The translations under genes were made by a program, and so were the position numbers. The notes below the pieces were generated by a model. It was given only the letters and a program-made list of their open reading frames with translations, was not told the DNA's origin and did no database searches. Positions 9,412 to 32,259 of a stretch of 64,000 nt of DNA are shown one piece after another. Location of the stretch: the IMG/VR virus record IMGVR_UViG_3300027985_000661, positions 32,403-96,402 of that record, one strand, 5' to 3'. Source of the DNA: a virus. Each line of letters begins with the position of its first letter. Positions within the stretch are counted from its first letter, which is position 1.

Positions 9412-12047
9412 TGGCTAAATCAAAAATAATTAAACCTTTTAAAAAACAACAACTTAAAAATGCTAGAGCCAAGCAAGAACAGTTGCCTGAATATGGTCTT
9501 GGCGGAGATGTCTTCGCCGGGGCTGCTTCTGGCGCTGCGGCAGGCTCTGCGTTAGGTCCCTGGGGAGCAGCAGGAGGGGCAATAATAGGAGGGGCAGTTG
9601 CTTATTTTGGAAGTAAGAAAAAACAAGGGGCGGAAGATGCCGCAAAAATAGCCGCTAAGAAAGCGGAAGAATTTGAACAAGGTAGGCAAACTGCTTTAGC
9701 TAATTATACACCTTCACAAAGTTATAACCCTGTTAATTTTAAAATAGGCGGTATAGTAAAGGCGGGCAATGGACTTAAAGTATCTGACAAGGCCAAGAAA
9801 CAAGCTGATTTTAATTACTATATACAAGATGTATATAATCGTCTAACTCCTGAGCAGAAAGTTGAAATTAGTTCTTTACAAGATATTGTAGATATAGGAA
9901 CTAGATTAGGCAAAGCTGGAGAGTTAATGGAAGAAAGTCCTTCTTTATATACTCCTGTACAGGAAGCCGATTCCTCAGCTGTGAGATCCAGGACAGAGTT
10001 AGAAGGCGAGTATAAAATACCTACAGAAGGAAGATCTAAAGAATCCGATGCATTTGGAGCCAGATCTTTTTCTTATATAAACCCTGCTGTAGTTAAGAGG
10101 TATGATACCAAAGGTAACCTTAAAGAAAGCTACAAAGTAGTAAAAGACCCCAATACTAAAGAGGGGTATAGAAAAGCTACAGAAGGGGAGCCCCTTATCA
10201 AATTTGAAGATGGGGGTGTATTTAGTATGTATACTAATAAGGCCAAAAAAGTAGCAAGGAATGTAATACAACAAGTAGTTCCGCCTAGGGGGTATTCAAA
10301 TAAATTAGAAGATGTAGTAGATGTTGGAAAGGTCTCGATAGGAAATTTATTATCAGGAGAGCCTCGTAAAAGCGAAGGGGACTTAAGAGAGGATATGTGG
10401 AAGTACGCTTTAGGAACAAGTGATTCATTAGAGCACTTTGAAACTTCTCCCTACTCTCCAGCTTCTTCTAAAGACCCTAATGCAGTATATCATAGGGCTA
10501 AAAATATAGATAGGCAAGCTTTTCTTAATAATGCAAAAGAATATTTAGGTAGTAATGAAAGTATAGTAACTAAACAAGGACTTCCACTAAGTGTAGTAAA
10601 TGAAGGGTTTAGAGACGTATATTCAGATGAAAATCCTGATGATGAAAAATTGAAATTTTCAGACGCTATGGGAAGATATACTATAGGTAGAGGGTCTGAT
10701 GACAAAGGTAATTATATATCTTACTATGATAAATGGGATTTAGCAAATCCAATAGCAAATAAGGTACTTAAAAGACAACCTGAAATTTATGATAGGGTGT
10801 ACTATGAAGAAGATGATTTAGGTAATTATAACCTAATAGATGAATTTAAATGTGGAGGTAAAGTGAAAAAACCTAGAATAATGAGAAATGGAGGGGCACA
10901 AATAGATACTGTTAATCCAAATGTAGAGGTAGAAGGAGGTGAGACTCTTTTAACTCCACAAGGTGATAATATAGCAGTAGAAGGCCCTAGCCATGAGCAG
11001 GGCGGTATCCCTATGAATTTGGAAGGGGGCACACAAGTGTTTAGTGATAGTTTAAAAGTACCTGGTACTAAAAAAACATTCTCAGATATTAATAAAAAAT
11101 TAATTAAAAAGATAGATCAGTATACTAAAGATTTAGAGTCCTCTAATTCTACTGGAATTACTAGAAAGACGGCTGAGAGAATGCTTTCTAAATTAAAAGG
11201 TGAACAACAAGATTTATTTGTAACCCAGGAAAGATTAAAGATTCCTACAAAAGGAATGCGTAAGAATGACGTAGCAAAAGCAGAGAACGGCTTATTAGTA
11301 AATAGAGTTCCTACATATAGTCAATTGCAAATGCCTAGCATACAAGCTGGGTTGGCTGATACATCGGCTACTCTAGCTACCCCTCAAGGAGGCTTCCCAG
11401 CATCCCCTGCTTTAGGCGGAGGAGGCAAAGGTCTTAATATGGGTAATGGTATATCTGCCGCAGCTACATTAGCGCCAGCTTTATATAATATCGGTCAAGG
11501 TTTATTTGGAGATGTAGAAATAGAAGAGCCTGTTAGATATGATAATTTTGCAGGGCAGGCTGCTGCTGCTAGATTAAGAGGTTTAAAAACAGATGTATCT
11601 CCTCAATTAGAAGAAGCTAAACAAAGTTACAGAGTAGGGAGGCACAACCTATCTAAGGCAGCTAGGTCTAGAGGAGAATTGTTAAGCGGCCTAGGAGGAC
11701 TATCTGCTATGGAGGCTCAGACTAGAGCAGGTATACTGTCAAATGCTCAGAATTTAGATAATCAATACACTGTACAAGAAGCGCAGCTATCCTCTAATTT
11801 GGGAGCACAACAAGCACAAATGGATTTCCAAGCGCGACAGGCTGCTAATTTAGCTAACCAGCAGGCGCGTACAGCGCAGAGTAATATGTTACGTACAGGA
11901 CTTTCGCAAACTAGTCAAATAGTACAGAATAATCAATTAATGAGGAATCAACAACAGCGGGATGCCATGAGAATGGAATCTTTACAATCCCTACTTCCTA
12001 ATTTCACGGTTGATCCTAGAACAGGAAAGATAATTTATAAAGGATAA
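9411..12047 (+). CDS. Virion cargo / ejection protein with Gly-Ala membrane-like segment
   Basis: An 878-residue protein. Residues about 30-67 form a Gly/Ala-rich hydrophobic stretch (GAASGAAAGSALGPWGAAGG) followed by KKK, typical of glycine-zipper membrane-inserting segments in ejected phage proteins. The middle carries EVEGGETLLTPQGDN and EGPSHEQGGIPMNLEGG, recurrent in crAss-like virion proteins. The C-terminal 200 residues are Gln/Ala-rich helix (SSNLGAQQAQMDFQARQAAN), probably coiled coil. By order (muzzle, this gene, next gene, RNAP) it is a cargo protein carried in the tail and injected with the polymerase. Ejection is inferred. Confidence 0.6.
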   Translation: MAKSKIIKPFKKQQLKNARAKQEQLPEYGLGGDVFAGAASGAAAGSALGPWGAAGGAIIGGAVAYFGSKKKQGAEDAAKIAAKKAEEFEQGRQTALANYTPSQSYNPVNFKIGGIVKAGNGLKVSDKAKKQADFNYYIQDVYNRLTPEQKVEISSLQDIVDIGTRLGKAGELMEESPSLYTPVQEADSSAVRSRTELEGEYKIPTEGRSKESDAFGARSFSYINPAVVKRYDTKGNLKESYKVVKDPNTKEGYRKATEGEPLIKFEDGGVFSMYTNKAKKVARNVIQQVVPPRGYSNKLEDVVDVGKVSIGNLLSGEPRKSEGDLREDMWKYALGTSDSLEHFETSPYSPASSKDPNAVYHRAKNIDRQAFLNNAKEYLGSNESIVTKQGLPLSVVNEGFRDVYSDENPDDEKLKFSDAMGRYTIGRGSDDKGNYISYYDKWDLANPIANKVLKRQPEIYDRVYYEEDDLGNYNLIDEFKCGGKVKKPRIMRNGGAQIDTVNPNVEVEGGETLLTPQGDNIAVEGPSHEQGGIPMNLEGGTQVFSDSLKVPGTKKTFSDINKKLIKKIDQYTKDLESSNSTGITRKTAERMLSKLKGEQQDLFVTQERLKIPTKGMRKNDVAKAENGLLVNRVPTYSQLQMPSIQAGLADTSATLATPQGGFPASPALGGGGKGLNMGNGISAAATLAPALYNIGQGLFGDVEIEEPVRYDNFAGQAAAARLRGLKTDVSPQLEEAKQSYRVGRHNLSKAARSRGELLSGLGGLSAMEAQTRAGILSNAQNLDNQYTVQEAQLSSNLGAQQAQMDFQARQAANLANQQARTAQSNMLRTGLSQTSQIVQNNQLMRNQQQRDAMRMESLQSLLPNFTVDPRTGKIIYKG

Positions 12048-12051
12048 TACA

Positions 12052-14121
12052 ATGGCAATTTCACGTTTCGATAGCCCTGCTGAAGCTCCAGTTATGAACA
12101 CTTATGTTCCTATTCCTTTTCAGGAATTGCAACAGGCGGCTTTAACAAGGCAACAAAGATTTGAAGAAGGTCTGGCAGCAGAAGAAGCCGTTGAGACCGA
12201 ATTAGGCACTTTCTCAGGATTAGGGTCAGTATATTTACCACATAAGGGTAAAAGTGTAGCAGTAGGAGATAGAGATAGGGTATTAGAAAGGGTATCGCAA
12301 TATAATAATCAGATAGACCAGTTAACTTCTAAATACCCTGATAAGTCTTCACCTGAATTTAGAACTGCTATTAGAAGTATAATAAGAAATATGCGAGCTG
12401 ATAAGGCACCTACTGGATTATTTGGTAGGGCTGAGGCTACGACAGCAGCTTATAGAGACATACAAAAAAGGTTATCAGAAAATGAAGATTTGGCTACAAG
12501 TCCACATTTAGGGCAAGATATATACGCCGGCCTAGAGGATTTTGCAAATAAGTCTTTAAAAGAACAAGTAGATTTAGATATACCAGCATCTATAGGCAAA
12601 CCTATGGATGTAGTCGGAGAGTTATCTGATCAGATTAAGAATATGAAAACCATGATAGGCGAGAACGCCTTTACTGAGGACGGTTATATAAAATCTGAGT
12701 ATTTGGAAACACTTACTCCTGAAAGAATACAACAGGCCGCTATGGGAGTTATAAATTCTAGACCTGATTTACAAAGATATGTGGCTAGGGAAAGTCAGTA
12801 TTACGGCAGAGATCCTCAAGAGGCTATCCAAGGATTAGCCAATACAATGGTTGATTTATTCCAAAAACAAGCGTACAAGAAAGATTTAAAAGGAGACCCT
12901 ACTAACAAGGCTAATAAAAATAGATTATTATCTGGTATAGGAGAAGAGATAGCAGTAGCCGTTCCTGGGCAAGTGTATACTCCTAGGAAAGTAGAGGATA
13001 ATATAAAGGATCTTGGCAAATCCATACAGGATAAGGAAACTGAGATATCCCAGTTCAAACTGGATATGAATATACCACAAGGCTCTACTATAGGGGTAGA
13101 TGAGTATGGTAATAAGAAAGACTTTGCATCTACCTTAGCTATTAAAAACAACGAGAAACAAAACATGCTGGATGAGAAGGCTAGGTTTGAAAAATTTAAT
13201 AGTTTAGCTAGGGAGCAGAGTGGCTGGACAGATGAATACTTATATACTAAATTAGAGGATCCTAAAGTTCAAGAAGAAGCTATTAAAGCAGCAGAAAATG
13301 AATTTTACGCTTCCCTTAGATCTTTTAATCCTCATACAGGGGGTATAGATACTAAAAAGTATGAGTCCAAAGAACAAGAGAATGCAGAAAAAGAAGACTA
13401 TATAAATAATAATTGGCAACGTGTAGCTACTAATAAATTAAAGCAAGACGACACTAATTATAAAAAATATGAACAAGTACTACAAGGATTTGGAAATACT
13501 TCTGCTGAAACTGCGGTTGTGTATCCTTTAACAAAGGAGTTAGTAGGTTCGGAAAATGTAGATTTTATAGAAGGTCTTGTTAATAAATATGGAACTTCTT
13601 TTGATATAGCAACTAAAGAAATAGTAAATACTAATACCGGATTGCCTATAGAAGATGAAGGGGAATGGAAAAAAATGAATTTTGAAAAAGCCAAATTCTT
13701 TGGGTACTTATTTGGACCAAGTGGGGAATTGAAACTGAATTATATAGTCCCTTCTAAAGATACAAATGGTGAGAATACTTCTATTGTAAGAAACGCCCCT
13801 AAAGGGTTAGAAAAAGCAGTATTAGAAGGCAATCAAGATTTCCTATTACAGAAAATAATAAAGGATCAAATATCTTATAATTTTAAAGATATAAGTGAAG
13901 ATATGCAGCAAGATACTGTATATTTAGGTCTTGCAGGTCTTAAGAAAGAAATACCTGTTATAGGTCCAAACTTTAATAAAAGAAAAGGCAAATGGACAGC
14001 CGCTTATAAAATAGAAGGCGAAGAGGTGCCTTTAGAAATAGAAGCTGACAATAAAGAGGAATTAGTATCCAAGTTAGCTTTCGCTTATGAAATGGAAGCA
14101 AATAGTAAATATAATAAATAA
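12052..14121 (+). CDS. Virion cargo protein, helical
   Basis: A 689-residue mostly helical protein starting MAISRFDSPAEAPVMNTYVP. This N-terminal style (PAEAPVMNTYVPIPFQELQQAAL) is shared by crAss-like proteins located just upstream of the virion RNAP and regarded as cargo. There is heavy Glu/Lys/Gln content and no enzyme motif. The gene lies 4 nt after the previous stop and ends 4 nt before the RNAP start at 14126, so the three genes form one translational unit. Confidence 0.55.
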   Translation: MAISRFDSPAEAPVMNTYVPIPFQELQQAALTRQQRFEEGLAAEEAVETELGTFSGLGSVYLPHKGKSVAVGDRDRVLERVSQYNNQIDQLTSKYPDKSSPEFRTAIRSIIRNMRADKAPTGLFGRAEATTAAYRDIQKRLSENEDLATSPHLGQDIYAGLEDFANKSLKEQVDLDIPASIGKPMDVVGELSDQIKNMKTMIGENAFTEDGYIKSEYLETLTPERIQQAAMGVINSRPDLQRYVARESQYYGRDPQEAIQGLANTMVDLFQKQAYKKDLKGDPTNKANKNRLLSGIGEEIAVAVPGQVYTPRKVEDNIKDLGKSIQDKETEISQFKLDMNIPQGSTIGVDEYGNKKDFASTLAIKNNEKQNMLDEKARFEKFNSLAREQSGWTDEYLYTKLEDPKVQEEAIKAAENEFYASLRSFNPHTGGIDTKKYESKEQENAEKEDYINNNWQRVATNKLKQDDTNYKKYEQVLQGFGNTSAETAVVYPLTKELVGSENVDFIEGLVNKYGTSFDIATKEIVNTNTGLPIEDEGEWKKMNFEKAKFFGYLFGPSGELKLNYIVPSKDTNGENTSIVRNAPKGLEKAVLEGNQDFLLQKIIKDQISYNFKDISEDMQQDTVYLGLAGLKKEIPVIGPNFNKRKGKWTAAYKIEGEEVPLEIEADNKEELVSKLAFAYEMEANSKYNK

Positions 14122-14125
14122 CAAC

Positions 14126-17100
14126 ATGAGTAATAAACTTACTAACGAAAAATTACAGGTTTTATTAAATTCTAAAGTAGATCCGACGACGGGTTTACAA
14201 CAACCTGAGCGTAGTAGTAATCTTACAAATGAAGACTTAGCACGGGGGTTGAAGTACGCTTCACCCTCTTCTTTTTTAGGTGGTAAGGATTTGCAGCAAG
14301 ACCCTACTAAATTTAATTTCGCTCTGAGGACAGATGCGGATAACCAAGAATTAAGGGCTCAAAACCAATCTTTTACACAACGTACTATGCATGGAGCTGG
14401 TAGGTTGATAGGAACTACTGTAACTAAGGCATTGTCAGGTCTAGGTTATGTAGGGTCTGGTATAGGAGCTTTAGCAAAAGGCGATATCAATGTCATGTTA
14501 GACAATGGGTGGTCTGCTGCTTTTAATGAGTTAGAAGAAGACATTAAAGAAGCACTTCCTATACACCATACTAGAAAATACTTAGAAGGAAATGTATGGG
14601 AGCAAATGGGTACATGGGGATTTTGGATGGACGATGTAGTAGACGGAGCAGCGTTTATGCTATCCTCTGCTATAGGAGCAAAGGGTCTAGACAAATTAGG
14701 TACCGCTACTAAAGTATACGGTAACCTTGCAAAAGCAGTATCTAAAGGACTTAGAGCTACTAAATTAGGTAAGGATATAGGTAAAACAAGTATCAGGTTA
14801 AAGAAAATAGCAGATGCGATGGATTTCGCTACTGTTACTGCTTATAATACTACAACAGAAGCTGCATTTGAAGCTAAGGATACTAAAGACCAAGTATTAA
14901 GATCTTTACAATCTAAAGTAGATAGGGGAGAAATATCTAAAGAAGAGGCTGATAAAATAGCTACAGGTGCTGCTAGAAATACATTTTGGTGGAACGCTGC
15001 TGCTATAGGACCGTCTAATGCTCTAGCTTTAGGCCAGATATTTAAAAAGTATGACTTTCTTAAGTTAGGTGCTAAAGGTACAGGACCTTTAAGTAAAACA
15101 CAAGTAGCTAGTATATTTGGCAAGAATGCTTTACTATCTGCTGCTTCTGAAGGGTTGTATGAAGAAAACATACAAAATGCTATTCAGTCTTATAATACAG
15201 ATGTTAATACTGGATTTGGACAGAATGGGGATTGGAAAGATCATTTAACAGGAGTATTAAGCAATGCTGCTAAAAACTTCACTACAGATGAAGGTCAAAA
15301 AGCAATGGCCTTAGGTGCTATTATAGGTCTAATACCAGGAGGTGTAGGTGGAGTAAGAAATGCCCAAGAATCTAATAAAAGAAATTCTATTTTAGCCACT
15401 TCTAGAGGAGTACAGCTTAATTTACTTAAGCAAGGAATAGCTGATTTATACGAACGAGATAATGCAGGTAATGTTGTTCTAGATGAAAATAACAAAGCTA
15501 AACTAAACCTAGACAAAGTACAATCTGACTTTGCTAAATTGTACCAAGAACAGGCAGATCTAACCGCTATGTTAAAGGCCTCCAATTCTGGAAATGAATT
15601 GATGGTAGATTTTCTAAAAGAACGCCAGGTACAAAGTGTGGCTAAACTACAAGCTGCTTCTAATTTAAATATTAATTCTTTTGAAGATTTCATAGATACC
15701 TATGCTCAAAAAGAAATAGAAGAAGTAGGGGAAGAAAGTAGGGATGGAATAGAAGGCCAAGCTAAAGGCTATAAAGAAAGGGCTAAAGAATACTTCAAAA
15801 TATATGATAGTATAACTAATAATTATGGTGGGTTATTTAATTTTGGAAATTCTAAAGAAGCTGTTGCTTTTAAAGAAAGCGTAATAGATTCACAATTTAA
15901 TGAGGCCGCTACTCAATATTTTTGGGAAACTAAAAAGAAAGAGTTAGAGGAGTCTTTAAAAGTAGCAGAGGATTCTGCTAATGTATTGGATTTAGATAAT
16001 AAACTAAACGCATTAAAAAGGGAAAAAGGAGTAGAAGTAACTGAAGAAGAAGCTAAACTTCGCATAGCTCCAGAAGCGGCTAAACGTATAGAGTCTACTA
16101 AGAAACGCATTAAAGAGATTGATAATATTCTATTAGAGTCCTATGAGAATATGAAAGATCTTCTTAATGAAGGTAAGCAAAAAGAAAGATTCGAAGAAGA
16201 AAAAAGACTTATCGAAAATTTCAAACAAGTTGTAGATGATGCAGTTCAGCAACAAAAAACTAATACTAGGAGCGAAGCAGATAAAACATCAACTAAAGAT
16301 AGAAGTGGTAAAGAAGTTAATCTTTCTAAGTTCTCCTACGAAGATGCTTTTAGACAAGGGTATGAAATAGACCAGCCTGCTACTGATATTAATAACAAAC
16401 TTAATAATATCACTCCTGGCGCTATTACAGCGTATTCTATTAAAAATGATGAAGCTAACCATAAACAAACTGTATTTACAAATGGAGATCCTAGTAATGA
16501 TGTATTAGGGGTATCGGATGTATTCTCTAGAAAGTTACAAAATATAAATACAGGCGAGGAAGTAGATGCTAATATAAGATTTAAAAATAATCAATTAGTA
16601 AATATAACTTATAAAGACACCAATAAAGGAGAGGAAGTTTCTTTTACTTTACCTACTAAAGAAGATGGTACTAAATATACACTAGATGACTTCAATGAAG
16701 TATTAGACTTAATCCCTGCTATATCTGCGTTTGAGGTTAAAGAAATAGAAGGTGAATATACATATTTAGGTAGAAAAAAAGTATCTGATTTTGATGCATT
16801 GGCTAGTCAAACAAGACTAGAAATGAAAAGAGGTAATAGAGAAGTGCAACGTAGTATTTCAGACAAGGTCTCACAGATTAAAAGAGATATTGAAAATGGA
16901 ATATCTAAAGGTTATGCTGACAGTAGGTACGGTAATACAACTTTTAAAGAACTGTTTAAAGATGCCGCTATACAGCATTACCCCGCTATTCATGCAGGTA
17001 AAGTAGGTATCCTTTCTTTGGAAGGAGGTAGTGTTATCTTTAAAGAAACTACTTTAGTACAAGATGACCTTAAGTTAGTTAAAAATATATCCGCTGTAGC

Positions 17101-20100
17101 TTCTATAGAGGACACTACAAAGTTAAGTGACCTTGAAATTTATATAGCTAAAGATATACCATTTAATATTAGTATAGAAGAATCTGGAAGTACATATAAA
17201 ATACAGGATAAATTATATACAAATAGGCTTGTAAATAAAATAGATGCTGTAGAAGAAGATAGTAAAGGTAATCCAATATCTGTAACTCTTACAAATGAGT
17301 TAGGAGAAAATATAAAATTCACTACTCCTAATATAGTAGACAGTATAGCTAGTAATTTACTGCTGTTTGAGATGGGCAAGGATAAAACTATTATAGATTT
17401 ATTCGGTACAGATTATTCTGACTTTGTTGTAATTAGAAAAGAAAATACTAAATACCCTGAGAATTACACAGTATATAGAAAAGGAGGTAGGTACACAATT
17501 TATACAGAAAGAGGTACCTTAGTTAAACCTCACTTTAAAAATTATAAAACTATAGCATTTCAAGTAGATAATGAAATTTCTAAATTGGCTATTGCTTACG
17601 CCGATAAATTAAAGTATAACTATAATAAAAAAGAAGTTAAAGATGAACTCACTAGACTTACTAGGATTTTTAACTCCCCAACAACAGGAGAGGCTCTTAA
17701 GTACCCCACTAAATCAGAGGTACTCGCTACTGAAAGAGTGGAGAGACCAAAAGGAGAATTAAAAGAAAAAGAAGAGCAGGATATAGTAAATAGCTCTATA
17801 GAAGATGACGCTATATCTGAAAGTGCTTTAGAGCAGAGAGAAGGGCAGAAGGCTGTAATTGCAGAGGAAGCTACAACTGATGATCTAATTAAACTAACCG
17901 ATAGTATAGAACCTATAGAGCCAAGTGAGGTAGAAGATAGGCAATATGAGAATGAGGTTTTATCTAGAGGTGTAAGACATACAGCTAGTGCTATAGGCTA
18001 TGTAGCTAATATAGACGGGCAGCCTAGACCTATTAATGAAGAGTTTGGTAAGTATGTAATTAATCAAAATATCAAGGGAGATTATGTTACTCCTGATTTG
18101 GATATGGAGAATGATTGGTGGAATACCGACCAAGATTACTCAATAGAAGATAAGCAGAAAGTTAAAGATGCTATAAAAAAAGGATTAACAGCCGAGCAAA
18201 TAGATAGGTTATTAGATTCTAAAAAACCAGGGTTTACAAATTGGGTAGATTCATTACCTATTAAAATAGAGTATGGTGAATTTGATTACGGCATTTATAT
18301 GCATAGGTCAGATTATCCTCATATTAGAGTACCTAAAGATATAGAGTACGCTAACTATAAAAATAACGGTGAATATCTAGATGCTATAGACAAATATAAG
18401 AATAAAATAAAGTCTCAAACAAAAGCGGCTAGGTATAAAATAATAGAATCCCTACTTAAAGGTAATGTTGTTAACATTCCTGTGGAAGGTAAATCTATGG
18501 GTACACCTAACAATATAGGAAATAAAAGAAATCTAGCAGAGGTATTAACCAAGATAGAGTCTAATATAGATCTTAGAGAGGTTACTTTAGGAGTAGCTAC
18601 TAAAGATGGGTCTATTGATAAAGGCAATGGAAGAAAAATGGTAGGTAAGGGTAGTCAAGGGAATATATTCTTAGAGACTTCTTATACTGCTAATGGTGAG
18701 GTAGGGAACTTTAAATTAAATCCTGGATATTTATCTCAAGAGCATGCTATTATTGTGTTAGAGACATTACAGCAAGCTTACGATCGTAAAAGTGGAGGAT
18801 TTAAAGGTAAGTACGAAGGTAAAGGAGTTACAGGTGATTTAACAAGATCTCAGATTTTAAAACTTCTTGTAGTATATGGGGAAGATAATACTAAAGTAGA
18901 AAATGACCCTAATAAACAGCATTTAAAAGAAAAACAACTTTGGGTAAAAAATGCTAGAATACTACATTATGGTACTAAGACTATGCCTTTACATAATCCA
19001 AGTAAAGAGCAGCTATCTGATTTTATAACTTGGGCAACTACTAAGAAAACATACGCTATTAATAGGGATCAACTTAATACAGGTGTTTATAATAAAGACT
19101 TTACAATTGGTAATATAAAGTTCATTAAAGGTAAGGACAACTATAATAGCATGGTATTAAAGTCAGGTATGGTTCTTACAGATTTAGATGTAGTAGAAGG
19201 TACTAAATCTTTAACTAAAGATCCTGCTGTAATAATGGACTTAGAAGCTGCCGGAATTTCATATAGCGAAGTTATACCTACTAAAAAGAATGAGGTAGTA
19301 CCTAAAGAAAGTAAGGTAGTACACACCTCTCCTAAAAAGGTAGCTAACGAGGTTAAACCTAAAGTTACAGAGGCTTCCGAATCTTCATCTGATGAGGTTA
19401 AACAAAAAGTTACTAAAAGAAGAAAAAATGCAGCAGGAGGTGTAGCAGGAGATAAGTTAGGAAACTTTACTAAAATTACTTCCATAGGAGTAGGAGGTAG
19501 TGTATATTTAGAAATAGAAAACGAGGAGGGTGATATATCTAAGAGAGTACTAGGAACAGTTGAACAAGACGAAGAAGGTCTATATTTTAGTTTAAAAGGA
19601 GTTGGTGCCGAATTCATTATTGTAGATAACGCCTTTAAGTCAGAAGGCGGGGATATCAGTTTGAATGATGCTAAAGCTTTCCAACGTATTAATGCTAAAG
19701 TTGGCATATTTAGTCATATGTTTAAGTATGATTCTCCTGGTATATCTGAGAGTAAAGTAGAAGAGTTAGAAAATAAAACTGCTGATATACAAGCGGAAAC
19801 TCCAGAGGTAAAAGTAGTTAATCCGCCATCTCAGGAGCAATCTAATCCTTCCCCTACTAAAGCTTTCAAAAATACAGGTAAGACAGGGTTACATCAGTTA
19901 GGTAGAAGTCCATTTAAAATGGCTACTAAAAAGCCAGGTACTTATACTTTAGCGGATCTCCAAAAGGAAACAAAATGGATTAAAGATAGATTTTCAGATG
20001 TTGAAGTAGATATAATAGATAATTTTATAGAGTTGGCCGGAGATAGAAGAGCTATGGGGCAATCTAGAAGAGATTCTATTTTATTAGCTACAATGGCTGA

Positions 20101-23100
20101 GGCTGGTACAGCATACCACGAAGCTTTCCACCGTGTATCTCTTTTTTACTTAACAGATGAAGAAAGACAAGGTATATATAATGAAGCTAAATCTATATAC
20201 CCAGGCTTAGAAAATAAGAAGGACTCAGAGATAGAAGAATTTTTAGCAGAGCGTTTCCGTAATTTTATTATAAGAGAGCAAGATAAACGTAATTCTAAAA
20301 AGAGTTGGGGAGCTAAAATATGGGATGCATTTAAAAAGATATGGAATGCTATTTCAAATTTATGGATTAAGCCGAGTAGATTTGATGAATTGACCTTGGA
20401 TAGATTATTTAGTGATATAGAGCAAGGAAGGTATAAAAGAACTAAGATAGATCCTACTAAATATAAAGACTTAACTGATACAAGTGTAAACTCTGTAGTT
20501 AAAGGATTTGAATTAAAAGGGACTAGGCTTTATTCTATACAGACTGAACAACAACTTAAAGAAGTTGTGCAATCTATGTTTTATACTTTAGCTGAAACCA
20601 ATTTACTTGTTCAATACGATGAGGAGACAGGTGAACGCACCTTAGGCCTAAGTTCTGTAGAGGATCTTAAAGATATAAAATACGGTCCAATGTTTGAAGC
20701 TATAGAACAGGAGTATAACGATGCCTTATCTATAGGTGAAAGTAATGAAGCTTTCTTATTAGAAATACCCACAGCTACGCCCTCTAGACTTCGTGAAATT
20801 AGAGAACAAGCTTTTGGAGATCCTAATTTCCAAGGAGATTTACAAGCAGAATTAAGACAGCAAGCGGATAGTGCATTTAATATAGGACTTATTTATGAAG
20901 AAATTTTAGACCATAGTGAAGTATTTACAGAGGTATTGGAAGATTACCTTAATGGTCTTAATATTAGAACTGTAAATAAAGATACCGATATAGATTTAGA
21001 CGAATCCCCTGATGAATTAGATGGAAGTACTAGATCAGATTTTGATAAGTATAATAAGATAGCGTTCGAGTCATCGGCTAAACACAATGTAGCAGCCAAT
21101 ATCAAGTTATTATTATCTATTCTCCCTGCTTCTAATGAACGTAGTGAATTGACTGGGTTATATACATTTGCAGAATTTGGGCAGCTAATGTCTAAGATAT
21201 ATAGAGATCTTAGAGGTATTAGAGACGCGCAATCTATGATGGATAAACTTGTAGAATTATCAGAAGGTAATATTACCTATTCTGTTCTTGTTAAGCATTT
21301 AAATAAAGACGAAACACTTAAAACACAGTTCTTTAGAACAGTTAATAAAAATGCTCTTGACTTTGTAAATGCCTTAGTATCAGTAGAAGATGGTAAGCCT
21401 AGGATTACTTTTGGAGCATCTGCTATACAAACAGCAGGGGCAAGGAAGTTAAAAGAATGGAACAATTCTTTGATAAGATCTGGTTTATTTAAACATAGTA
21501 GAGGTGGTGAACCTATCCCTAATATCGAAGCCTTTAATAAATTACAAAATAAATTTATTGATCTATATGATAATATTAAATTTCAGGTAGATAGAAAGAA
21601 GAGTATTAATAATTTAGAAGAATTAAAAACTGATCTTATTTCTATTTTAAATGAAGCTGGTATTGAAATAGATATTAAAGGATTAGAATTAGCTTTATCA
21701 GATATTAACGATATTCAATCAGAAGCTTTATTAGATTTAATTCAAGGAAGTGAGACATTTAAATCTCCTATATATTATATATTAGGTAAAGAGGGAAGTT
21801 TAGATAAACTTTTTAGAAGTAAAAACGGCACTTATAAAAATGATAAAGGAAAGTTTATCAATTTTGAAAATGTCTACACAGATGAAAAAGGAGCCAAATA
21901 CTTATCTAATAAACAAGCTGAAACTAACCCTTATGAAGAGGGAGATTCTATATTCGGAGCTGGTGGAAACAGGTATTACACTATTATGCAGCACACCTAT
22001 ACTAGTAATACTTTTAATGAGTTTGCTAAGAATCCTGAGGTTATAGAAGCTAAATTAAATGCTGTATATAATAAAAATAGTAGATTTCTTAATGCTTTGA
22101 AAGACGACCCTAAATTGGCAGAGATAGTAGGCATGAAGACTATGGCCGCTATAGTTAGGGAGGATGAATATGATACTGGTAGAGAGTACCAAGGAATTAC
22201 TGAATTAGAGGATTATTTGCTTCGTATAGCCGCAAATGAGAAAGGACTATTCACACCCCCTACTCCTGCGGATCGTAGATTTTACGCTTTCTATCAAGGT
22301 TTTAATGACCTTAAATTAGATGGTACTATGGATACAGAAGGCAATATTAATGAGGAAGTATTAGAAGTATTTTCAGATTACGTTAAAGACGAAGAGGCCC
22401 GCATGAGAGTTGTAAGGGCAGATATAGACAAAGTTATCAAGGGACAACGCGATTCCTCTACTTTATTCGAAAATTACCATTATAAATATTTTGGAGCAGG
22501 CGAGACTGTACAAGAAGGGCAAGTGGTTATTGAGGGAAATGATATAGTTCCTGTAGGGAAGAAAGTTAAAAATGGAGGTAAGTTACTTAAGCGGAATAAT
22601 AAATATGTAGGAGGCGGAGCTAACTATACCAACTTTGCATCTTTTAACAACAATACACCTACTAATGTAAAGCAGGCATTACAGAGTATTATAAGAGATC
22701 GTTTAAATGATGAAATTAAATACATTACAGACTTAGGAATTGTAGAATCAGAATTAGATAACGGGAATTATAGAATTACTAAGAATTTACTTTTGGACGA
22801 CGGTATGTTAGATCGTTATAAGAAAGAATTAGTAACAGAAGACGAAGAGTATGCTGCCGAGAATATAGTATTAGACAATTTAATTAATACTATGATGGCC
22901 AGCATTGAGACAGGTAAACTTATTACTGGTGACCCTGCTTCGTATAAATCTCCTGAAGATCATGTTAAACGTCTTCCTGGCTATACCTCTACTGGGGATA
23001 ATACACGGAATGACTTCCCTGCTGAATATTATACAGATAGTCCATTAGTGCATTCTAATAAATATAATGTAACTACTTTCACAAGTAAAATAATAGAATC

Positions 23101-24414
23101 TACATATTACGATACTTTGTTAGATATACATACTAATGCACTTATATCTGAGGGGGTAGTAGCTAATAAAAATGAGGCTAGATCTATAGCAAAATTAAAA
23201 TTGGAAGCTTATTTAAATGTAGATCAAACAGATGCTCAAACTTTTATTACACCTGAAATGTACAGGGCTGTTGCTATCAAATTAGGTGAATGGAATAATG
23301 TAAAAGAACAAGCATATCAGCAGATATTAAATGGAGAGGGTAGTAATATGACAACTAAAGACGTTGTTTTCCAACCTCTTAAAATGACATATGTAAATGT
23401 ACAATATGTGGATGGCCATGCTATAGCAAAATTCGATAAAATGTCTATGGCTACTTTATTTAGAGCGGATATTAAAGGCACTAAAATGGAGAAGTTGTTA
23501 GATAGAATGGAAGCTGTAGGAGAGTTCAAAGGTCTAGAACCTATACACCAAGTTAAATTCCACACTGCTGAAAAAGTAGGGGGTAGAGATAGAAAAGAGA
23601 TATTCCAAGATAATGGTGAATTTGTAGAACTATCTGAGCTTAACTACTACGATCAGGACTTTGATATGCTTAGGTTACAGCTTGTAACAGATCCCCATGA
23701 AGTTAATGAAACTTTAGTAGGTTCTCAGTTTAAGAAAGTGGGTATGTCTAATGTTAAGTTAACCGAGACATACGGTAACGGTAAAACAGGGGCCGAAATA
23801 GTAGAGGAAATAAATAGTATGCTTTCTGAATTATCGAATAGAGGTAAAGATTCCTTATCTGAGGAATTCAATCTAGATAAAAGTAATAAGATAGTAGATA
23901 AGCAAGTATTTATGGATAAATTAAAAGAAGAAGGTAAAAAAGCAGGGATGCCTGATTATATACTTGATACTTTTAAATTGAATGAAAATGGAGATTATTA
24001 CGTAGAACCTGACGCTCATCCTGGTAATAGAAAATGGATACAGAATAGGGTGTTGTCTATAATTAAGAAGGCTACTATTGATTTGAAACTTCCAGGCAAT
24101 GTATTTATTCAAATGTCTAATATAGGTATAGCTAAGGATAAAGAACTTAGGCTTATGGATGAAGAAGGATACATAGAAGCTAAAATATCTGTAAGTGTAT
24201 TTAAAAATATGATACCTTCATATAATACTAAAACACATGCAGAAAGAGTTGAATTCTTGCGTTCTAGACCCGACATCACTGCTATGGCATATAGGATACC
24301 TACTCAAGGACAGAACTCGACATTCGGTCTTAAAGTGGTTGATTTCTTAGATGAGAGAGTGGGAGATGTTATAGTATTGCCTGCTGAAGGTACTGCTGTT
24401 GGAGGTTTTGACTT
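14126..24414 (+). CDS. Giant virion RNA polymerase polyprotein, exon 1
   Basis: This is the first 3429 codons plus two bases of a 4322-residue protein, joined to 25243-27922. I start at the ATG of MSNKLTNEKL, just after the upstream stop; a further in-frame ATG at 14087 lies inside that gene. The N-terminal third is an alpha-helical, Ala/Gly-containing cargo-like region. A zincin motif HEAFH lies at residues 1998-2002 (context AGTAYHEAFHRVSLF). The C-terminal third carries the double-psi beta-barrel region that reaches the catalytic motif at residues 3429-3433, DFDID. crAss-like RNAPs (phi14:2 gp66 type, related to YonO and eukaryotic RdRP) are packaged and injected to transcribe early genes. 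Exon 1 ends inside the Phe codon of DFDID; reading on into the intron gives seven extra residues and a stop. Confidence 0.88.
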
Positions 24415-25242
24415 TAATTATAGAGTCACTGCGTAGAAATACGCTGAAACCTTTCAAATATATCAATCGTATAACCACATAAAGGTTATACAATGGAAAA
24501 AGAAATATTTAATAATTATAGTATATCGAATACCGGAATTATAAAAAGTAAATTTACCGGTAAAGAAATGAAACAATATATAAGTAATGTAGGATATTCT
24601 GCGGTTAGACTTACAATAGAAAAAGGAAAAACAAAATTATTCCACGTACATGTTTTAATCGCAATTGCTTTTTTAGATTATAGTTTAAGTAGTAATTTAG
24701 TTGTAGATCATAAAAATAATATAAGGACAGATAATAGATTAGAGAATTTACAATTAGTAACTAGAAGATTAAATAATACTAAAGAATTTACAGGGAAAGT
24801 AAAATATCCAGGAGTACATATAGAAAAAGGAAGAAGGCATTATAGAGCTCGGATAAAAAATAAAGATAAGTATTTATCATTAGGTTCCTACTTAGATCCT
24901 AAGGATGCATACAGAGCTTATATGAAATCTTTAAAAGAAATAGATATACAGGCTTATAATTATTATAAAGATATATTTGGAGAATAAATAACTCCTTTAA
25001 TTGCTGGGAACTCCTATAATAGAGTATAGGGCAATCAGCAGCCAAGCTTCGAAAGAAGAAGGTTCAACGACTAGTCCGGCACGTTAAAAAGTGCGGTAGA
25101 AGGACGTACATCCAAGTGGATGGAAATGGGGAGCACCTTACTAGATAATGCTAAAGGTGAAGATATAGTCTAGTCTGTATGGTAACATACAGCAGTTCAT
25201 AAGAGAACGGGTACAGATTAACGACCTGTATTGAATATTACG
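24415..25242 (+). mobile_element. Group I intron in the RNAP catalytic motif, with HNH endonuclease
   Basis: An 828-nt intron. Splicing TT|T restores DFDIDKLYFIR without a frame change (phase 2). P1 forms between exon TGACTT (24409-24414) and guide GAGTCA (24423-24428), giving U.G at the splice site. P2 is GCGTA-GAAA-TACGC. The core has TAATTGCTGGGAACTCC, AATCAGCAGCC (P4 region), GACTAG (25069-25074) and ATAGTC (25165-25170) as P7 strands. The last base is G (25242). The layout fits subgroup IA phage introns. The endonuclease gene lies between P2 and P3. Confidence 0.9.
24493..24987 (+). CDS. HNH homing endonuclease with AP2-like C-terminus
   Basis: A 164-residue intron-encoded protein. The N-terminal 35 residues look like a NUMOD4-type segment (FNNYSISNTGIIKS). 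The HNH core spans about residues 52-92: H at FHVHVLIAIAFL, then VVDHKNN and NRLENLQLVT, the HNH_3 pattern. The C-terminus (YPGVHIEKGRRHYRARIKN...LGSYLDPKDAYRAY) is an AP2/ERF-like DNA-binding domain. It would cut intronless RNAP alleles and drive intron homing. It lies wholly inside the intron between P2 and P3 and has its own ATG. Confidence 0.88.
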   Translation: MEKEIFNNYSISNTGIIKSKFTGKEMKQYISNVGYSAVRLTIEKGKTKLFHVHVLIAIAFLDYSLSSNLVVDHKNNIRTDNRLENLQLVTRRLNNTKEFTGKVKYPGVHIEKGRRHYRARIKNKDKYLSLGSYLDPKDAYRAYMKSLKEIDIQAYNYYKDIFGE

Positions 25243-27922
25243 TGACATTGATAAATTGTATTTTATACGCCATAATTATACCAAAGATGGATATAAGATA
25301 GAGTACTTAACTGATGACAATTCTACTCTTGAAGAAAGAATGGAGGCGTATGCAGAAGAAGTATTAAAAGATAGATTTAAAGATATTAAAAGAAAGTATA
25401 AAGGTGAAGAAATAGATAAGAGGATTAAACTTGAAATACTTAATTGGAAAAACAATAATAGAATTAGTTTTGAAAAAAGAAGTATTAAAGCTCAAAATAC
25501 TAAAGAAGCTGTACAGAATAGGTTATTAGATATGTATTTTGATATTTATAGGGATAGTAAGCATGCTGCACATAGAACTCAACCTTTAGGATATGGAGCC
25601 GACCAATTGAAAAAGCTTGCAAAAGATATAAGAAAATGGAATGGTACTATAAGAACTGATAAAGAAGGAAATGTAATAGAAACAGACGTTGAATCACTTA
25701 AATCTACTACTCCAGTATTTAACTTAGATGTTAAAGCTAGGTATAAATTAGGTAAAGCTTTAGGTTCTTATGCTCTTTCTAACGTTCACCATGCTTTAGG
25801 TCAGACAGTAGGACTTTCCCTTAACCAGAATATAGGATCTGGAAACCTAAATGAATTTGGAAATACCAGTCTTGCAGGATTATTAGGTAGGGATAATGAG
25901 TATATAATGGAGTGGTTCTCTGCTCTTATTGATGCTCACGTTGATATAGCAGCCGATCCTTTCATTTACTTCTTAAATGCCAATGATTATACAGTTAAAG
26001 AACTTTCGTTACTATTAAGAGCCGGTGTTGGCGGTATTAAGACGTTTAAATTTATAGCCCAACCTATACTGTCTTCTATTGCAAAAGAAGTAGAAAATGC
26101 TAAAAATAATATAGGTCTTGATATTCGAATTGCCGATGTTGTAGCTTCAATTAGAAAGAAATATGAAGCACAAGCTAGAAAACATGGAGTTTCGTATGTA
26201 GAGTATAACCCCTCTATAGATAATTTCGATTCTATATTAAATGAAGCAGAATTAGAAGATGCTTTTAAAGAATCTGCAAAAGAGAATCCAAAAGGAAGTT
26301 TTTACGTACAACAATTAAGGGTATTAGATGCTTTCCAAAGTATATCCTTACCTGCCCAGATGCTATCAGAAGCTGTAATGGCTAGTAGGATTGATACTAA
26401 GAAATTTGGTACATCGTTCTCAGAGGTAGAGAATTATACTATTAGAGTACAGAAAGCTTTAGATGACGAGGCAAAAGGAGCGGGAATTCAAGGTTTCAAG
26501 AAGTTTATTGAAGATACTTATTTAGGTGCCTATACCAACAATAGTATAGATCTATCTTATGGTATGTTATCTAATATATCTTTAGAGACCAAGCCTGCTT
26601 TTCGTAAAGCTGTTAGAAATATCTTAACAAGTGTAAATAAGAGGTATACTGCAAGTGAGAAACTAATAAAGACAGTATCTGATGAGATATATACTAACCT
26701 TACTGCTGCTTATTTTAAAGAAAAAGGTATACTTGAAGAAAGTATGATCAAATCGCTTATATATGGAAATAACAGTATTCCTAAAAGAGTAGAGGATATA
26801 AAAAATGGCAGTATTAAAGGATTTGAGAAGTATAAAGACTCAGGATTACTTTCTAAATTAGTACCTTACTATAAGCAGGATGCTCCTGATATGTTAATAT
26901 TTAATAAGCCTGATGATAAGTATGAAAAGGATTCGTTAGTTAGATCTTGGAAAGATATGGCAAACAGTACTAATCCAGATGTTAGAGCTTTTGCACAAGA
27001 TTTATTCTACTACTCCTATTTAACTAGTGGTTTTAAAAATACTCTTAATTCATTTTACGATCTCGCCCCTAGAGAATTATTAATAGATGAGGGCTATAAT
27101 GAGTTTATTAAAGAATATTTTAGTAAACTTAACGATCCTGATTATTTTGATATGTTCTTAGATGAATTCTACTTAAATAGTTGGAATAATAGTGAGTTAG
27201 TACCTGAAATTAAGGATAAGAGTATTAAAAGTAAGAAAAGTGCTAGTAAAGGAGGTACATACATGCTATTTACTGATAATATTTCTTTTTATGTAGGTAA
27301 GAATAATAAAGGCCAGTCTATTTATAGACCTTATATTAAGTATAAAGGGCCTGAAGGTTTAGAACTATATAAGTATACAGGTACTATATCAGAAAGAGGC
27401 AAAGAATTTGCAATTTATTATAGGGTAGAAAAGAAAGGTTATAATAAGAATGGATTTGTCGTAAAAGAGAATTTAACTAAAGGTACAATATTCTCTTCTA
27501 ATAGGACTGGATTACCTGATAGCGTTACTAAATATCTAAACCCTACTAATATATCTTCTATAGCGAATGCTAAAAATAAAGACGGTATTAAAATATTCGA
27601 TTTCCTAAGTAAGGCAGATTTCGTTAATATTGAGGATATGGTAGTGTCCCAATATAAAAATGATATAAGGGATTTCGATTCAGAAACACAGGCTAAAATA
27701 AACAGAATTAGACCTTTAGATTTGACCGATGAAGCCACTAAATTATTTAGTACCCAAGAGATTGTGACTACTAGTTTAGATATACAAAAAGGTTTCTATA
27801 CTTTGAATAATAATAAAATTGTATTTATTGATAAAATAGAAGAAGATTCTTATTTGGTTGAACAGTGGGGATACCAAACACCTACTTCTGAACAGATAGA
27901 TGCTAATATGAAAGAATGTTAA
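25243..27922 (+). CDS. Giant virion RNA polymerase polyprotein, exon 2
   Basis: This exon begins with the last base of the Phe codon and continues DIDKLYFIRHNY, finishing the metal-binding DFDID loop. About 893 residues remain. They include Asn/Leu-rich helical blocks such as VHHALGQTVGLSLNQNIGSGN, expected of the helical bridge and C-terminal part of crAss-like RNAPs. An apparent ORF starting at 25256 lacks the catalytic aspartates, so the intron must be spliced for an active enzyme. The next gene starts 12 nt downstream. Confidence 0.87.
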
Positions 27923-27933
27923 AATAATAAATA

Positions 27934-30900
27934 ATGAGTTGTCCTAATAAGAATTTAATAGATTACCAACGATTGGTCGACAGTCTTGGGGAGAAAGGGG
28001 CATTCCATGTATTTATAAAGAACGGTAATAAAGTTCCCTATATACAAAATAGGGAACAAAACCGTTTTATATGGGATGTAGAAAATAAGTTTGGATTAGT
28101 TGATTGGCCCTCTACAAATATAAAAGGCCTTAATCAAAAACAATATAAAGGATTCGATAGATTCACTACTGAAAAACTTATTAACCAAATACGTGAACAA
28201 TATGTAGGTGACTATACTATTAAACGTGTATCTCCGTATGGGAAAGGGGAATTCGGATTGAAGATAGAGGGTACTCCAGTTTCTAAAGAAGAACTAGATA
28301 GTTTTTACCCTACTTTAGAGCATAGCGAAGCTTTACATAAGTACCTCTATTACAAAGAATTTCAAATAAGGGAAGAAGAGGCAAATGAGGATATACTTCC
28401 TTTAGATACGTATGATCAGAAAATAATGGACTTGAGTTCGGGCAATTCTGATTTAAGAATATCTAAAAGAGGTGTAGAAAAGACACTCCTCAAAATGCAA
28501 GCTACTTTAATGTCTAATATGCCTAGAATAAAAGAGGTTATATATGATAGTACTTTAGAAGTAGCGGGTAGATTAGAGGCAGGAGGAGAGATAATAAAAG
28601 TAAACCCTGAGTACATGACTACTGATACATTAGGTCATGAATTTGGGCACTTACTTATAGATTTGAGAGGAGGATTAAGAGACCCTTTTATACTACAAGC
28701 TATTGAACAATTAGAAAATACTGAATTAGCACAAGGAGTAAGAGAGAGGTACCCTGAATTAAAGGGAACTGAAAAATTGCAGAAAGAGATACTAGCCCAA
28801 GCTATAGGTAAAGAAGTAGTTGATTTATTTCAAGAGCAGGAGGAAAATAATAAATTTGAAAGATGGCTACTTAGATTATTTAGATGGCTAAAGTCTCGTT
28901 TAGGTATTGAAAAAAATAACGCTAGAGAGTTAGCAGGGATGCTAATAGGGGAAGTATCTTTAGATGAGAGTAAGTTTCTATTTTCACCATCCGATTATCC
29001 GCAGGAACAAAAGTTAGCAGAAGATGGGGATATAGTTGATGAAGAGCTTGAAGATAGAAAAGACGCTTTAGAAAATTTACAAACTGCTGCTAAGATTAAA
29101 AATAAGTATCAACAAATACGTGACAAGGCTATTGATCTTATTAACACTCGTATACGTAGAGAGACAAGCGCAGGTAGGGCAGGTAGTTTACAGTCTTTAA
29201 AAGAAGTATTAGAAAAGTTACAAAATGAAGGAATAGATGATAAAATAGCTATCGCTTCCTTTGTAGACAACGCAGTTACAGCTATTAATTCCATATACAA
29301 AGACTATAAAATTAGGAAAGAAGAATATGATAATGGAGACCCTGATGCTATAACTATCAAAATGCTTAATAGATGGACTAATATACTATCAGCATACGAT
29401 ACTTTGGACACAGTCTCCTACTCTATTATGGAGGACGAATTCAACGTGGAAGGTATTTCCAAAGAAGATCTAAATAATATGCGTAGGGATGTGGATGACG
29501 CTATTAAGAAGAAAAACCTAGTAAAAGAACTTTACAAGACTTTAGGGGGAGATTTAATGTCTAAGACATTAGCTAGATATACTACTAAAATATTGGCTGA
29601 GAAGCGTAATCAATTTAAAAGGGAATGGCTGTCTAAAAATAAAAACGATTATAGTAAAACAAAAGATCGTAATAAGGCATTACAAGAAGCTACAGATGCT
29701 TATATGAAGGACAAAATTTCTGACCTTACAGAAGAGACTACTATTAAATTGAGGGCGGAAATGCAGAAAGCCTCTACAGGAGATATAAATATGCTCGCTG
29801 CTTGGTTCGATACTGTATTAGATACTGACGATATGGTTGTTGGCGCTATGGTTAAAAAGTTTGTCATAGCAGATCGAAAAGCTAGACAAAGAGCTATAGA
29901 TTTTAGGAATAGAATGTTGCCAATTCTAAAAGAACTGGAACAATTTACAGGGTATACAACAAATACCGCTCCTGAAAAAATGTACGATTTTATGCTAGAA
30001 AAGAATGAAAAAGGAGAGTATACAGGTCATGTTCTTTCACAATTTAGCAGCGGTCTTATAAACGAATTTGATAGGATTAAAAGAGAGTACCAAGATCTAC
30101 CTGAGAAAGAAAGGCGCATAGAAGTTTATAAATGGAAGCAGGAAAATATGCCCACAAATGAAGCTAAAAAAACAAAAGCTTTTCAAGAATTTTTGGGGGA
30201 ATTGAAAGATAGTAAAATAATAAATGAAGAGGACATTAAAAGGATAAATTCTAACTTGGAATTACCATTCGAAAGGCAGAAAAACCCTGAGTCTTTTTTA
30301 AGTTTTGAAGCAGCTAATGAAATTACAACATGGTTTAGGAGTAATTCATTTAAATTTAGAGAGCCTACATCTAAATGGGAAAATAAAGAATGGAGGCAAT
30401 TAGAACGTATTTTAGAGGATAAAAATGATCCTAGAACTAAATTCTATGAATTAATAGCAGAAGCTAAAAATGAGGCGGACTCACAACTCCCATTTAACAA
30501 GAGACAGCATGATAGACTCCCATTTGTAATAAAAAGTACACGGGAAAGAATGCTATCAGGTCAAACTCTTAAAAATATAGTACAGGATAAAATAAAAGAT
30601 CTTACACAAGTCCGAGAGGATGATACAGAAAGAGGGTCAGTATTAACAGATGAGAACGATAAACCTATAGATTTCGTACCTATACATTATATTAGAAGCT
30701 CAGATTATAATGTGAATGATCAATCTTTTGACTTAGCCACTGTTTACTATAAGTATTTTAAAATGGCAACTAATTATGGGGAAAAATCAGATCTTATAGC
30801 AGAAGCAGAATATACAAAAAAGATAATTTCAGAAAGAGAGATGCCGGTATATGATTCTAAAGGTAATCCTATTAAGGCATACTTGGGTAATTTATCACAG

Positions 30901-32259
30901 AAAGATTTAACTAAAAGTGGTAAAAACTCTCAATTACTTGTTCAATACGAACAGTTTCTTAAATCCCTACTATACGGCCAAACGAAAATAGATCATGGGG
31001 AATGGGACGTGTTAGGATATAAAATAGATAAAGCAAAAGTAGGGGATAACCTTAATAAGTTCACTGCTTATAATATGTTAGGTTTCAATATGTTACAGGC
31101 CGTATCTAACGTTACGTTAGGTGAAACTACTCAAATATTGGAGGCTAAAGCAGGTTCTAAATTTAATATGCAAGATTTACATGATGCTACAGTAGAGTAC
31201 TATGCTAAGATGCCTGAGATAGTAGGTGATATAGGCCTTAGGGCTCCTGAGTCTAAAATAGGCCTATTAAACGAGAAATTCGATATACTTAACGAATATG
31301 AAGGCGGAGTATATAGAAAGAACACTAGGTGGTCTAATTTGATGAATTCTAGTGCGTTATTCTTCATGTCTCATGCAGGTGAGCATTTTATGCAGACACG
31401 TGTAATGATGGCAATGCTAAAGAAGAAAAGGGCATTTGATAAAGAAGGTAACGACATAGGTAGTATATACGATATGTACTCTACTGAAAATAATAAATTG
31501 GTGTTAGACGAGAGGGTAGATATAGTAAAATCAGGATGGGATGAAGAAAATCAAATACTATTTGGAGAGGAAGTAAAAGCTTTACTAATGACCTTGCATG
31601 GTAACTATTCTGATCTTGGAGTAGTGGCTGCGCAAAGGCATGTTCTTGGTAGGATGGGGTTAATGTTCCGTAAGTTTATAGTACCTGGGTTTAAAAGACG
31701 ATGGGGAGGAAGAAGATTCAATAATTTCTTAAATGACTACACAGAAGGATACTATTCCACTACTGGTAGGTATTTTAAAAATCTTATAACTGAGTCTAAA
31801 TCCCTCAGTTTCTCTGCTATGTCGGAGTCATGGAAAGACCTGTTACCAGAAGAACAAGCTAATATAAGAAGAACAATATCTGAATTTTCATTTATGATTA
31901 TTTTTAGTATTCTATCCACTGCTTTCTTAACACTTAAAGGAGAAGCCGACGACGATGATGAAAGAAGGTTTTATTCTGCACTTTCTTATTTAACTCATAG
32001 GGCTAGTTCAGAATATGGTTTTTGGTGGAACCCTAGTGCAGCAATGGAAGTACTAAGGTCTCCCGCAGCTTCAATATCTACATTAGAGAATGTAATAAAG
32101 ATGGCAACACAAATGTTCCATCCTTTTGAGAGGTATGAAAGAGGCAATTGGGGAGGAGAATTAAAGTTGACTAAAAACGCAATACAATTAATGCCTGCTA
32201 TAAAGCAGATATATAGGATAAGGGACGTAGAAGACTTGGCGGAGCTTGTGAATATTTAA
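27934..32259 (+). CDS. Large virion cargo protein with zincin motif and membrane segment
   Basis: A 1441-residue protein, last gene of the plus-strand block. HEFGH at residues 235-239 (context TDTLGHEFGHLLIDL) is a zinc-metallopeptidase signature. A long charged helical region follows (about 370-900). One hydrophobic segment, FSFMIIFSILSTAFLTL, lies at about 1318-1334, followed by an acidic EADDDDE run. The C-terminus (RASSEYGFWWNPSAAMEVL) is conserved in style with crAss-like large tail-cargo proteins. Probable role: ejected with the RNAP, with membrane or envelope transit. Protease activity is inferred from the motif. A rho-independent terminator follows. Confidence 0.7.
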   Translation: MSCPNKNLIDYQRLVDSLGEKGAFHVFIKNGNKVPYIQNREQNRFIWDVENKFGLVDWPSTNIKGLNQKQYKGFDRFTTEKLINQIREQYVGDYTIKRVSPYGKGEFGLKIEGTPVSKEELDSFYPTLEHSEALHKYLYYKEFQIREEEANEDILPLDTYDQKIMDLSSGNSDLRISKRGVEKTLLKMQATLMSNMPRIKEVIYDSTLEVAGRLEAGGEIIKVNPEYMTTDTLGHEFGHLLIDLRGGLRDPFILQAIEQLENTELAQGVRERYPELKGTEKLQKEILAQAIGKEVVDLFQEQEENNKFERWLLRLFRWLKSRLGIEKNNARELAGMLIGEVSLDESKFLFSPSDYPQEQKLAEDGDIVDEELEDRKDALENLQTAAKIKNKYQQIRDKAIDLINTRIRRETSAGRAGSLQSLKEVLEKLQNEGIDDKIAIASFVDNAVTAINSIYKDYKIRKEEYDNGDPDAITIKMLNRWTNILSAYDTLDTVSYSIMEDEFNVEGISKEDLNNMRRDVDDAIKKKNLVKELYKTLGGDLMSKTLARYTTKILAEKRNQFKREWLSKNKNDYSKTKDRNKALQEATDAYMKDKISDLTEETTIKLRAEMQKASTGDINMLAAWFDTVLDTDDMVVGAMVKKFVIADRKARQRAIDFRNRMLPILKELEQFTGYTTNTAPEKMYDFMLEKNEKGEYTGHVLSQFSSGLINEFDRIKREYQDLPEKERRIEVYKWKQENMPTNEAKKTKAFQEFLGELKDSKIINEEDIKRINSNLELPFERQKNPESFLSFEAANEITTWFRSNSFKFREPTSKWENKEWRQLERILEDKNDPRTKFYELIAEAKNEADSQLPFNKRQHDRLPFVIKSTRERMLSGQTLKNIVQDKIKDLTQVREDDTERGSVLTDENDKPIDFVPIHYIRSSDYNVNDQSFDLATVYYKYFKMATNYGEKSDLIAEAEYTKKIISEREMPVYDSKGNPIKAYLGNLSQKDLTKSGKNSQLLVQYEQFLKSLLYGQTKIDHGEWDVLGYKIDKAKVGDNLNKFTAYNMLGFNMLQAVSNVTLGETTQILEAKAGSKFNMQDLHDATVEYYAKMPEIVGDIGLRAPESKIGLLNEKFDILNEYEGGVYRKNTRWSNLMNSSALFFMSHAGEHFMQTRVMMAMLKKKRAFDKEGNDIGSIYDMYSTENNKLVLDERVDIVKSGWDEENQILFGEEVKALLMTLHGNYSDLGVVAAQRHVLGRMGLMFRKFIVPGFKRRWGGRRFNNFLNDYTEGYYSTTGRYFKNLITESKSLSFSAMSESWKDLLPEEQANIRRTISEFSFMIIFSILSTAFLTLKGEADDDDERRFYSALSYLTHRASSEYGFWWNPSAAMEVLRSPAASISTLENVIKMATQMFHPFERYERGNWGGELKLTKNAIQLMPAIKQIYRIRDVEDLAELVNI

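Follow-up and report, generated by a model that had tools for sequence, protein, structure and literature searches.

A group I intron with an HNH endonuclease reading frame in the catalytic DFDID codons of a crAss-like phage RNA polymerase

How can a gut phage of the crAss group make an active RNA polymerase (RNAP) when the gene is interrupted between the aspartates of its catalytic motif? This question is raised by a stretch of 64,000 nucleotides (the window), which covers bases 32403-96402 of the 96,402-base IMG/VR virus record IMGVR_UViG_3300027985_000661. An original prediction, made from the letters alone, had placed a group I intron inside the Phe codon between the aspartates of a DFDID motif. 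Our analysis leaves us highly confident that positions 24415-25242 are a mobile, self-splicing group I intron (IA-like), which carries an HNH homing endonuclease and interrupts the codons for the DFDID loop, the Mg-binding site of a crAss-like virion-type RNAP. Established here are the identity of the intron, its boundaries, the reading frame, the lack of another motif, the recurrence of such introns and the horizontal spread of sister introns.

The interrupted polymerase gene and the intron within it

A frame of 3449 amino acids (aa; 14087-24436, plus strand like all features described in this section) resembles the crAss-like virion RNA polymerase gp66 of Cellulophaga phage phi14:2 (PDB 6vr4; phmmer E 2e-38) and terminates directly past D1, the first catalytic aspartate (codon 24410-24412, placed by alignment with 6vr4). 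Read without splicing, it continues as GGFDFNYRVTA and meets a stop at 24434-24436. The 5' exon (14087-24414) covers residue 1 through the first two bases of the Phe codon and ends in GGT TTT GAC TT, while the 3' exon (25243-27922) starts with T GAC ATT GAT AAA, completing Phe and then encoding D2 (25244-25246), I, D3 (25250-25252), K, L, Y and the remaining RNAP. Joining both yields 4335 aa with the sole stop at the end, containing ...GGFDFDIDKLYF, with the junction peptide GGFDFDIDKLY and no gap against 6vr4 through DFDIDK; the frame-keeping join to DFDIDKLY that had been proposed is thereby confirmed. The absence of GAYTTYGAYNNNGAY from both strands of the 96,402-base record means that there is no second intact DFDxD, a finding that would have spoken against the original prediction.

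The closest RNAPs of named phages are those of Suoliviridae (cr1_1 and cr55_1, 35%; cr4_1, 33%; cr118_1, 33%; over about 400 aa), and neither Pfam nor PHROGs recognized the RNAP of the window. Judged by its sequence, the protein qualifies as a homologue of the proven virion RNAP phi14:2 gp66, with a catalytic domain bearing DFDxD. Packaging of gp66 in the virion is known from tandem mass spectrometry (MS/MS) notes, and by analogy the enzyme of the window phage would be packaged as well.

The intron itself comprises 828 nucleotides (nt), lies in the Phe codon between the catalytic aspartates and ends in G25242, a terminal G shared by sister introns. A covariance-model search, which had been suggested as a check, matched Rfam Intron_gpI (RF00028) at 24946-25192 with 95.1 bits (E 6.1e-25; gathering score 50); scanning the whole window at the gathering threshold missed the intron, and a short stretch was required for the match. 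All of P1, P2, P3-P8, P9, P9.1 and P9.2 can be drawn, including the conserved core with the guanosine site in P7. Pairing and folding place P1 at 24409-24428 (TGACTT 24409-24414 with GAGTCA 24423-24428), where the exon-terminal U24414 faces the guide G24423 as a U.G pair at the 5' splice site. The P2 hairpin (24431-24444, GCGUA-GAAA-UACGC) holds the in-frame stop UAG 24434-24436, and the 95-nt 5' end of the intron folds at z = -6.0.

The ribozyme core (24990-25170), supported by the Rfam match, pairings and covariation, consists of P3 (24992-24995/25130-25133), P4 (25001-25007/25035-25041), P7 (GACUA 25069-25073/UAGUC 25166-25170, as originally read), P7.1 (25074-25077/25102-25105), P7.2 (25109-25122) and P8 (25134-25139/25154-25159). 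It is followed by P9 (25175-25192), P9.1 (25195-25208) and P9.2 (25212-25230), each assigned by pairing. The P5/P6 pairs covary; on the P6-P7 side, the default pairing of RNAalifold was dropped for the known P6 pairing, which has compensatory changes. Between P7 and P3', the pairings GUCC/GGAC and CAUCC/GGAUG form P7.1 and P7.2; read by eye, they suggest subgroup IA.

Between P2 and P3, the intron contains an open reading frame (ORF) of 164 aa (24493-24987). Pfam returned HNH_3 (E 1.8e-11, over the curated cut-off) and NUMOD4 (E 4e-4, slightly under the cut-off), and the PHROG match is an HNH endonuclease. This domain content, a catalytic domain together with a DNA-binding module, classifies the ORF as a predicted HNH homing endonuclease, whose product would be expected to act as a nuclease; its relatives are only 34-38% identical. 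Immediately 5' of the AUG lies an 8-bp hairpin (24468-24492), which could mask the ribosome-binding site of the ORF in the precursor RNA.

Introns in the polymerase motif of other crAss-like phages

Judging from the sequences compared below, the window is one case of recurrent introns in this motif of crAss-like phages, a point that the original prediction overlooked. IMG/VR was searched with stretches upstream of the break points, a choice that gives intact and split motifs an equal chance of being found; an alignment that took in all crAss RNAPs had proved too divergent as a query. Together with loci gathered earlier, the finds amount to 243 RNAP loci (2.05 Mb); those whose motif could be parsed represent 184 distinct contexts. 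DFDxD is uninterrupted in about 200 of the 243 loci and broken in six (cr116_1/L052, L064, L066, L068, L146 and L165); in each of the six, a group I core coincides exactly with the break. Within this set, a simple core pattern revealed no further core of this kind, and a covariance model built from the cores matched strongly at the motif only; weak matches lay far upstream of it in L029 (E 1e-4) and L004 (E 0.015).

A DNA pattern specific for the junctions brought in five more loci (L255, L256, L257, L259 and L260). Scanning with the LAGLIDADG protein of these introns identified 21 loci with at least 44% identity, partly on contigs already seen, and every one sits in the RNAP catalytic motif. 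The first LAGLIDADG outside it (L285, 40% identity) is encoded by a group I intron that interrupts another phage gene, with a second intron core about 1.1 kb upstream.

Altogether, 26 records carry a split motif, 25 of them besides the window, with five insertion positions (the slash marks the break): after D1 (GSD/FDxD, 12 records), inside the Phe codon (the window), after F/Y (GSDY/DID; L284 and L307), after D2 (GSDFD/xD, 10 records) and after I (GSDFDI/DKAY; L283). These are counts of records and not of independent events, as L278 and L279 appear the same at the junction and the members of two pairs, L146/L257 and L256/L259, are nearly identical; L257 was counted on its 3' junction alone. 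That the interruption in the window is an assembly artefact or a chance resemblance could be argued from its exact site, which occurs on a single metagenomic contig. We consider this practically negligible, given the ribozyme match (E 6e-25), the exact keeping of the frame and the recurrence of such interruptions in many other records, among them the published genomes cr116_1 and cr131_1.

In cr116_1 (MT774389), the RNAP is annotated as two unrelated hypothetical proteins, which are the two exons flanking a group I intron after DFD. Two further observations concern the collected records. The RNAP gene of L255 has a second group I intron (reverse strand, about 10250-10530; 3' end placed approximately) within the conserved stretch GYRIPTE, which precedes DFDxD by about 45 codons. 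The contigs L306 and L307, filed as metagenome-assembled genomes of Lachnospiraceae and Gastranaerophilales, carry crAss-like RNAPs with motif introns and are probably phage contigs binned with bacteria.

Three records bear on a published puzzle. The RNAP ORFs of Zeta crAss-like phages are disrupted within DxDxD, and the expression mechanisms behind the disruption were proposed as unknown (Yutin et al., 2021; PMC7886860). L283 (a contig of 171,661 bases), L284 and L307 encode divergent RNAPs (xARIPxQ... or SSRIPAQ..., with in-frame TAG) and probably belong to the Zeta group, judging from size and sequence style rather than a tree. Their motifs are split by group I introns, which score 85 bits in L283, 38 bits in L307 and weakly in L284 (21 bits, E 0.012); in L284, a 6-bp P1 with U.G and the exon join both fit. 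Group I splicing would be a sufficient explanation of the DxDxD disruption in these three.

Taken together, we think it likely that homing has a hotspot, throughout the order, in the DFDxD codons of crAss-like virion RNAPs, with at least five phosphates of a 15-nt motif and at least two endonuclease types involved, phage families crossed, and the Zeta disruption explained. The single element is ordinary; new here is the multi-position pattern in the RNAP motif, for which no statement was found in the searchable literature, which omits most subscription journals. If the hotspot reading is true, many RNAPs annotated as 'split' are intact after splicing. The analysis yields exact splice junctions in the gene of an enzyme that is essential to highly abundant phages of the gut. 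It lets the two halves of cr116_1, which looked broken in the annotation, be read as a single intact polymerase, and it proposes a specific mechanism where the remark on the Zeta RNAPs had left the question open.

Mobility, splicing and the alternatives

Natural empty sites were found for two of the sister introns. L147 is an allele without the intron, with 96.1% identity to L146 across 900 nt of joined flank (0 gaps) and an exact empty site; for L064, the relative that lacks an intron is cr50_1 (81%). Across cr116_1 (Steigviridae), L064 (near cr50_1, Suoliviridae), L146 and L165, the LAGLIDADG proteins share 75-80% identity, but the downstream RNAP exons of the same phages share only 25-38%; therefore, the introns moved between lineages. 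At the D1 and D2 sites alike, one LAGLIDADG lineage is present, which means that an insertion point can move by 6 nt.

Three features set the window intron apart from these sisters: HNH instead of LAGLIDADG, an ORF in another loop and another phosphate. Among the loci compared, it is closest to an intron of cr116_1 located next to the gene for anaerobic ribonucleotide reductase (70% over 214 nt). We read the window intron, by its sequence, as an independent arrival in the motif.

Three results weigh against our interpretation of the window. Its exact phosphate has no second case, the DNA pattern of its 3' junction matching unrelated sequences only. No close intronless sister was found for it; the best gapless match spanning the site is 71.5% over 172 nt. 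Finally, P1 (TGACTT/GAGTCA) taken alone does not outperform shuffled versions of the first 60 bases of the intron (p = 0.28). For P1, the proposed pairing with its U.G is thus present in the window but not significant by itself; it is credible because the guide sequences of sister introns track changed exon ends. These exon ends vary (GGTTCGGAT, GGTAGTGAT, GGGTCTGAT, GGCTCTGAT, GGTGGGGAT) and are matched by the guides GTTCGAACC, GTTTCTACC, GTTTGACCC, GTTTGAGCC and GTTCCC. A guide G stands opposite the last exon U in all P1 calls except that of L307, where the scan covered the first 60 bases only and a GTAGTC like that of L284 occurs further in.

Does the interrupted gene encode an intact enzyme at all? 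The RNAP could be broken, or made as two separately translated halves, with an intron that does not splice; the annotation of cr116_1 as two separate proteins and a TTG start downstream of the motif in the 3' part would fit two halves. We regard this as very improbable: a polymerase split between D1 and D2 loses its metal site, the 4335-aa frame is open without decay, the boundaries of sister introns correspond exactly to natural empty sites, and the ribozyme pairings are conserved.

We instead favour the self-splicing, mobile intron, whose splicing activity is predicted from sequence. In the late mRNA, the ribozyme would excise itself: guanosine would attack after U24414, held in P1, and the exons would then join after G25242, restoring the Phe codon and the 4335-aa enzyme. 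The spliced late mRNA would supply active RNAP for packaging, and mRNA left unspliced would give a 3449-aa product without an active site. The earlier claim of a need for complete splicing ahead of assembly is stronger than needed and does not follow, since enough spliced mRNA suffices and the truncated product of unspliced mRNA could coexist. The endonuclease would cut alleles that lack the intron, at the best-conserved codons of the gene, and so help the intron to spread; catalytic codons would be the homing target because they cannot drift. Homing thus appears to converge on the least changeable codons, with five insertion points in one catalytic motif.

A location in the motif also turns splicing into a strict on/off switch. 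The intron might be retained, beyond being a selfish element, for timing the active virion RNAP, for example by preventing early activity during assembly; introns recur at the motif, and copies without an ORF persist (L066, L068, L255). We judge such a regulatory role unlikely, as about 200 relatives with an uninterrupted motif and a near-identical intronless allele indicate that the intron is dispensable, and homing fits the endonuclease ORFs and the horizontal spread.

Further introns in the genome and comparison with known systems

The original prediction also overlooked other introns of the window genome that likewise lie in catalytic motifs. On the minus strand, the gene of DNA polymerase A is split between D and E of motif C (VVHD/EIVLE) by a group I intron (45854-44971) with a LAGLIDADG ORF (45038-45727). 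A second group I intron of this gene (about 46750-45970, minus strand), at PIQG/TAGD, contains an ORF of 196 aa (45976-46566) without a Pfam match; its core was missed by Rfam and scored 60 bits with our model R1, the training set of which includes this core. The third (44026-43001, minus strand) interrupts the Walker A motif of DnaB (AGTSG/SGKS) and has a GIY-YIG-type ORF (43405-43974); no clear P1 was found for it. Counting the RNAP intron, four introns were noticed in the window, each of them in a catalytic or nucleoside triphosphate-binding motif. Downstream of the RNAP, the next large protein (27934-32259, plus strand) takes the place of phi14:2 g065, an RNAP-associated protein, in the gene order of phi14:2, and has no domain match.

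Compared with phi14:2 gp66, the window encodes a homologous polymerase with DFDIDK; the phi14:2 gene is uninterrupted, whereas that of the window is split by the intron. The introns of T4 td, nrdB and nrdD are the classical phage group IA introns. They share with the window intron the core architecture, the U.G in P1, the terminal G, an endonuclease ORF and a site in a conserved gene, but reside in other host genes, and the window intron has its ORF between P2 and P3. The DNA polymerase of Pf-WMP3 harbours an HNH/IA2 intron (PMC3428280), and reviews describe phage introns as generally located at conserved, active-site codons.

For Delta and Zeta crAss-like phages, introns and inteins in core genes have been reported, and the legend of Fig. 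3 mentions LAGLIDADG for the transcription block (PMC7886860). Group I introns in core genes and, with our three probable Zeta records, an RNAP broken within DxDxD are common to that study and ours; the present analysis adds splice junctions, five insertion points and the spread across families.

The closest layout is found in PhiPA3, where the HNH endonuclease gp210, encoded in an intron of the virion RNAP beta gene (gp211/209), nicks at conserved Asp codons with a competitive effect (PMC11620839). By the same token, the window endonuclease might cut the RNAP gene of co-infecting crAss-like phages, as gp210 does to PhiKZ gp178. The shared layout and the crossing of families by sister LAGLIDADG lineages speak for such competition between phages; it is also compatible with simple homing, does not exclude it, and involves a cleavage that is putative here, so that we propose it only tentatively. 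Both systems combine a group I intron and an HNH endonuclease in a virion RNAP gene at active-site Asp codons. PhiPA3, in contrast, is a jumbo Pseudomonas phage with a multisubunit RNAP, the site lies in the beta subunit and not in the beta' DFDxD metal loop, and nicking and competition have been demonstrated, whereas the window element is known from sequence alone.
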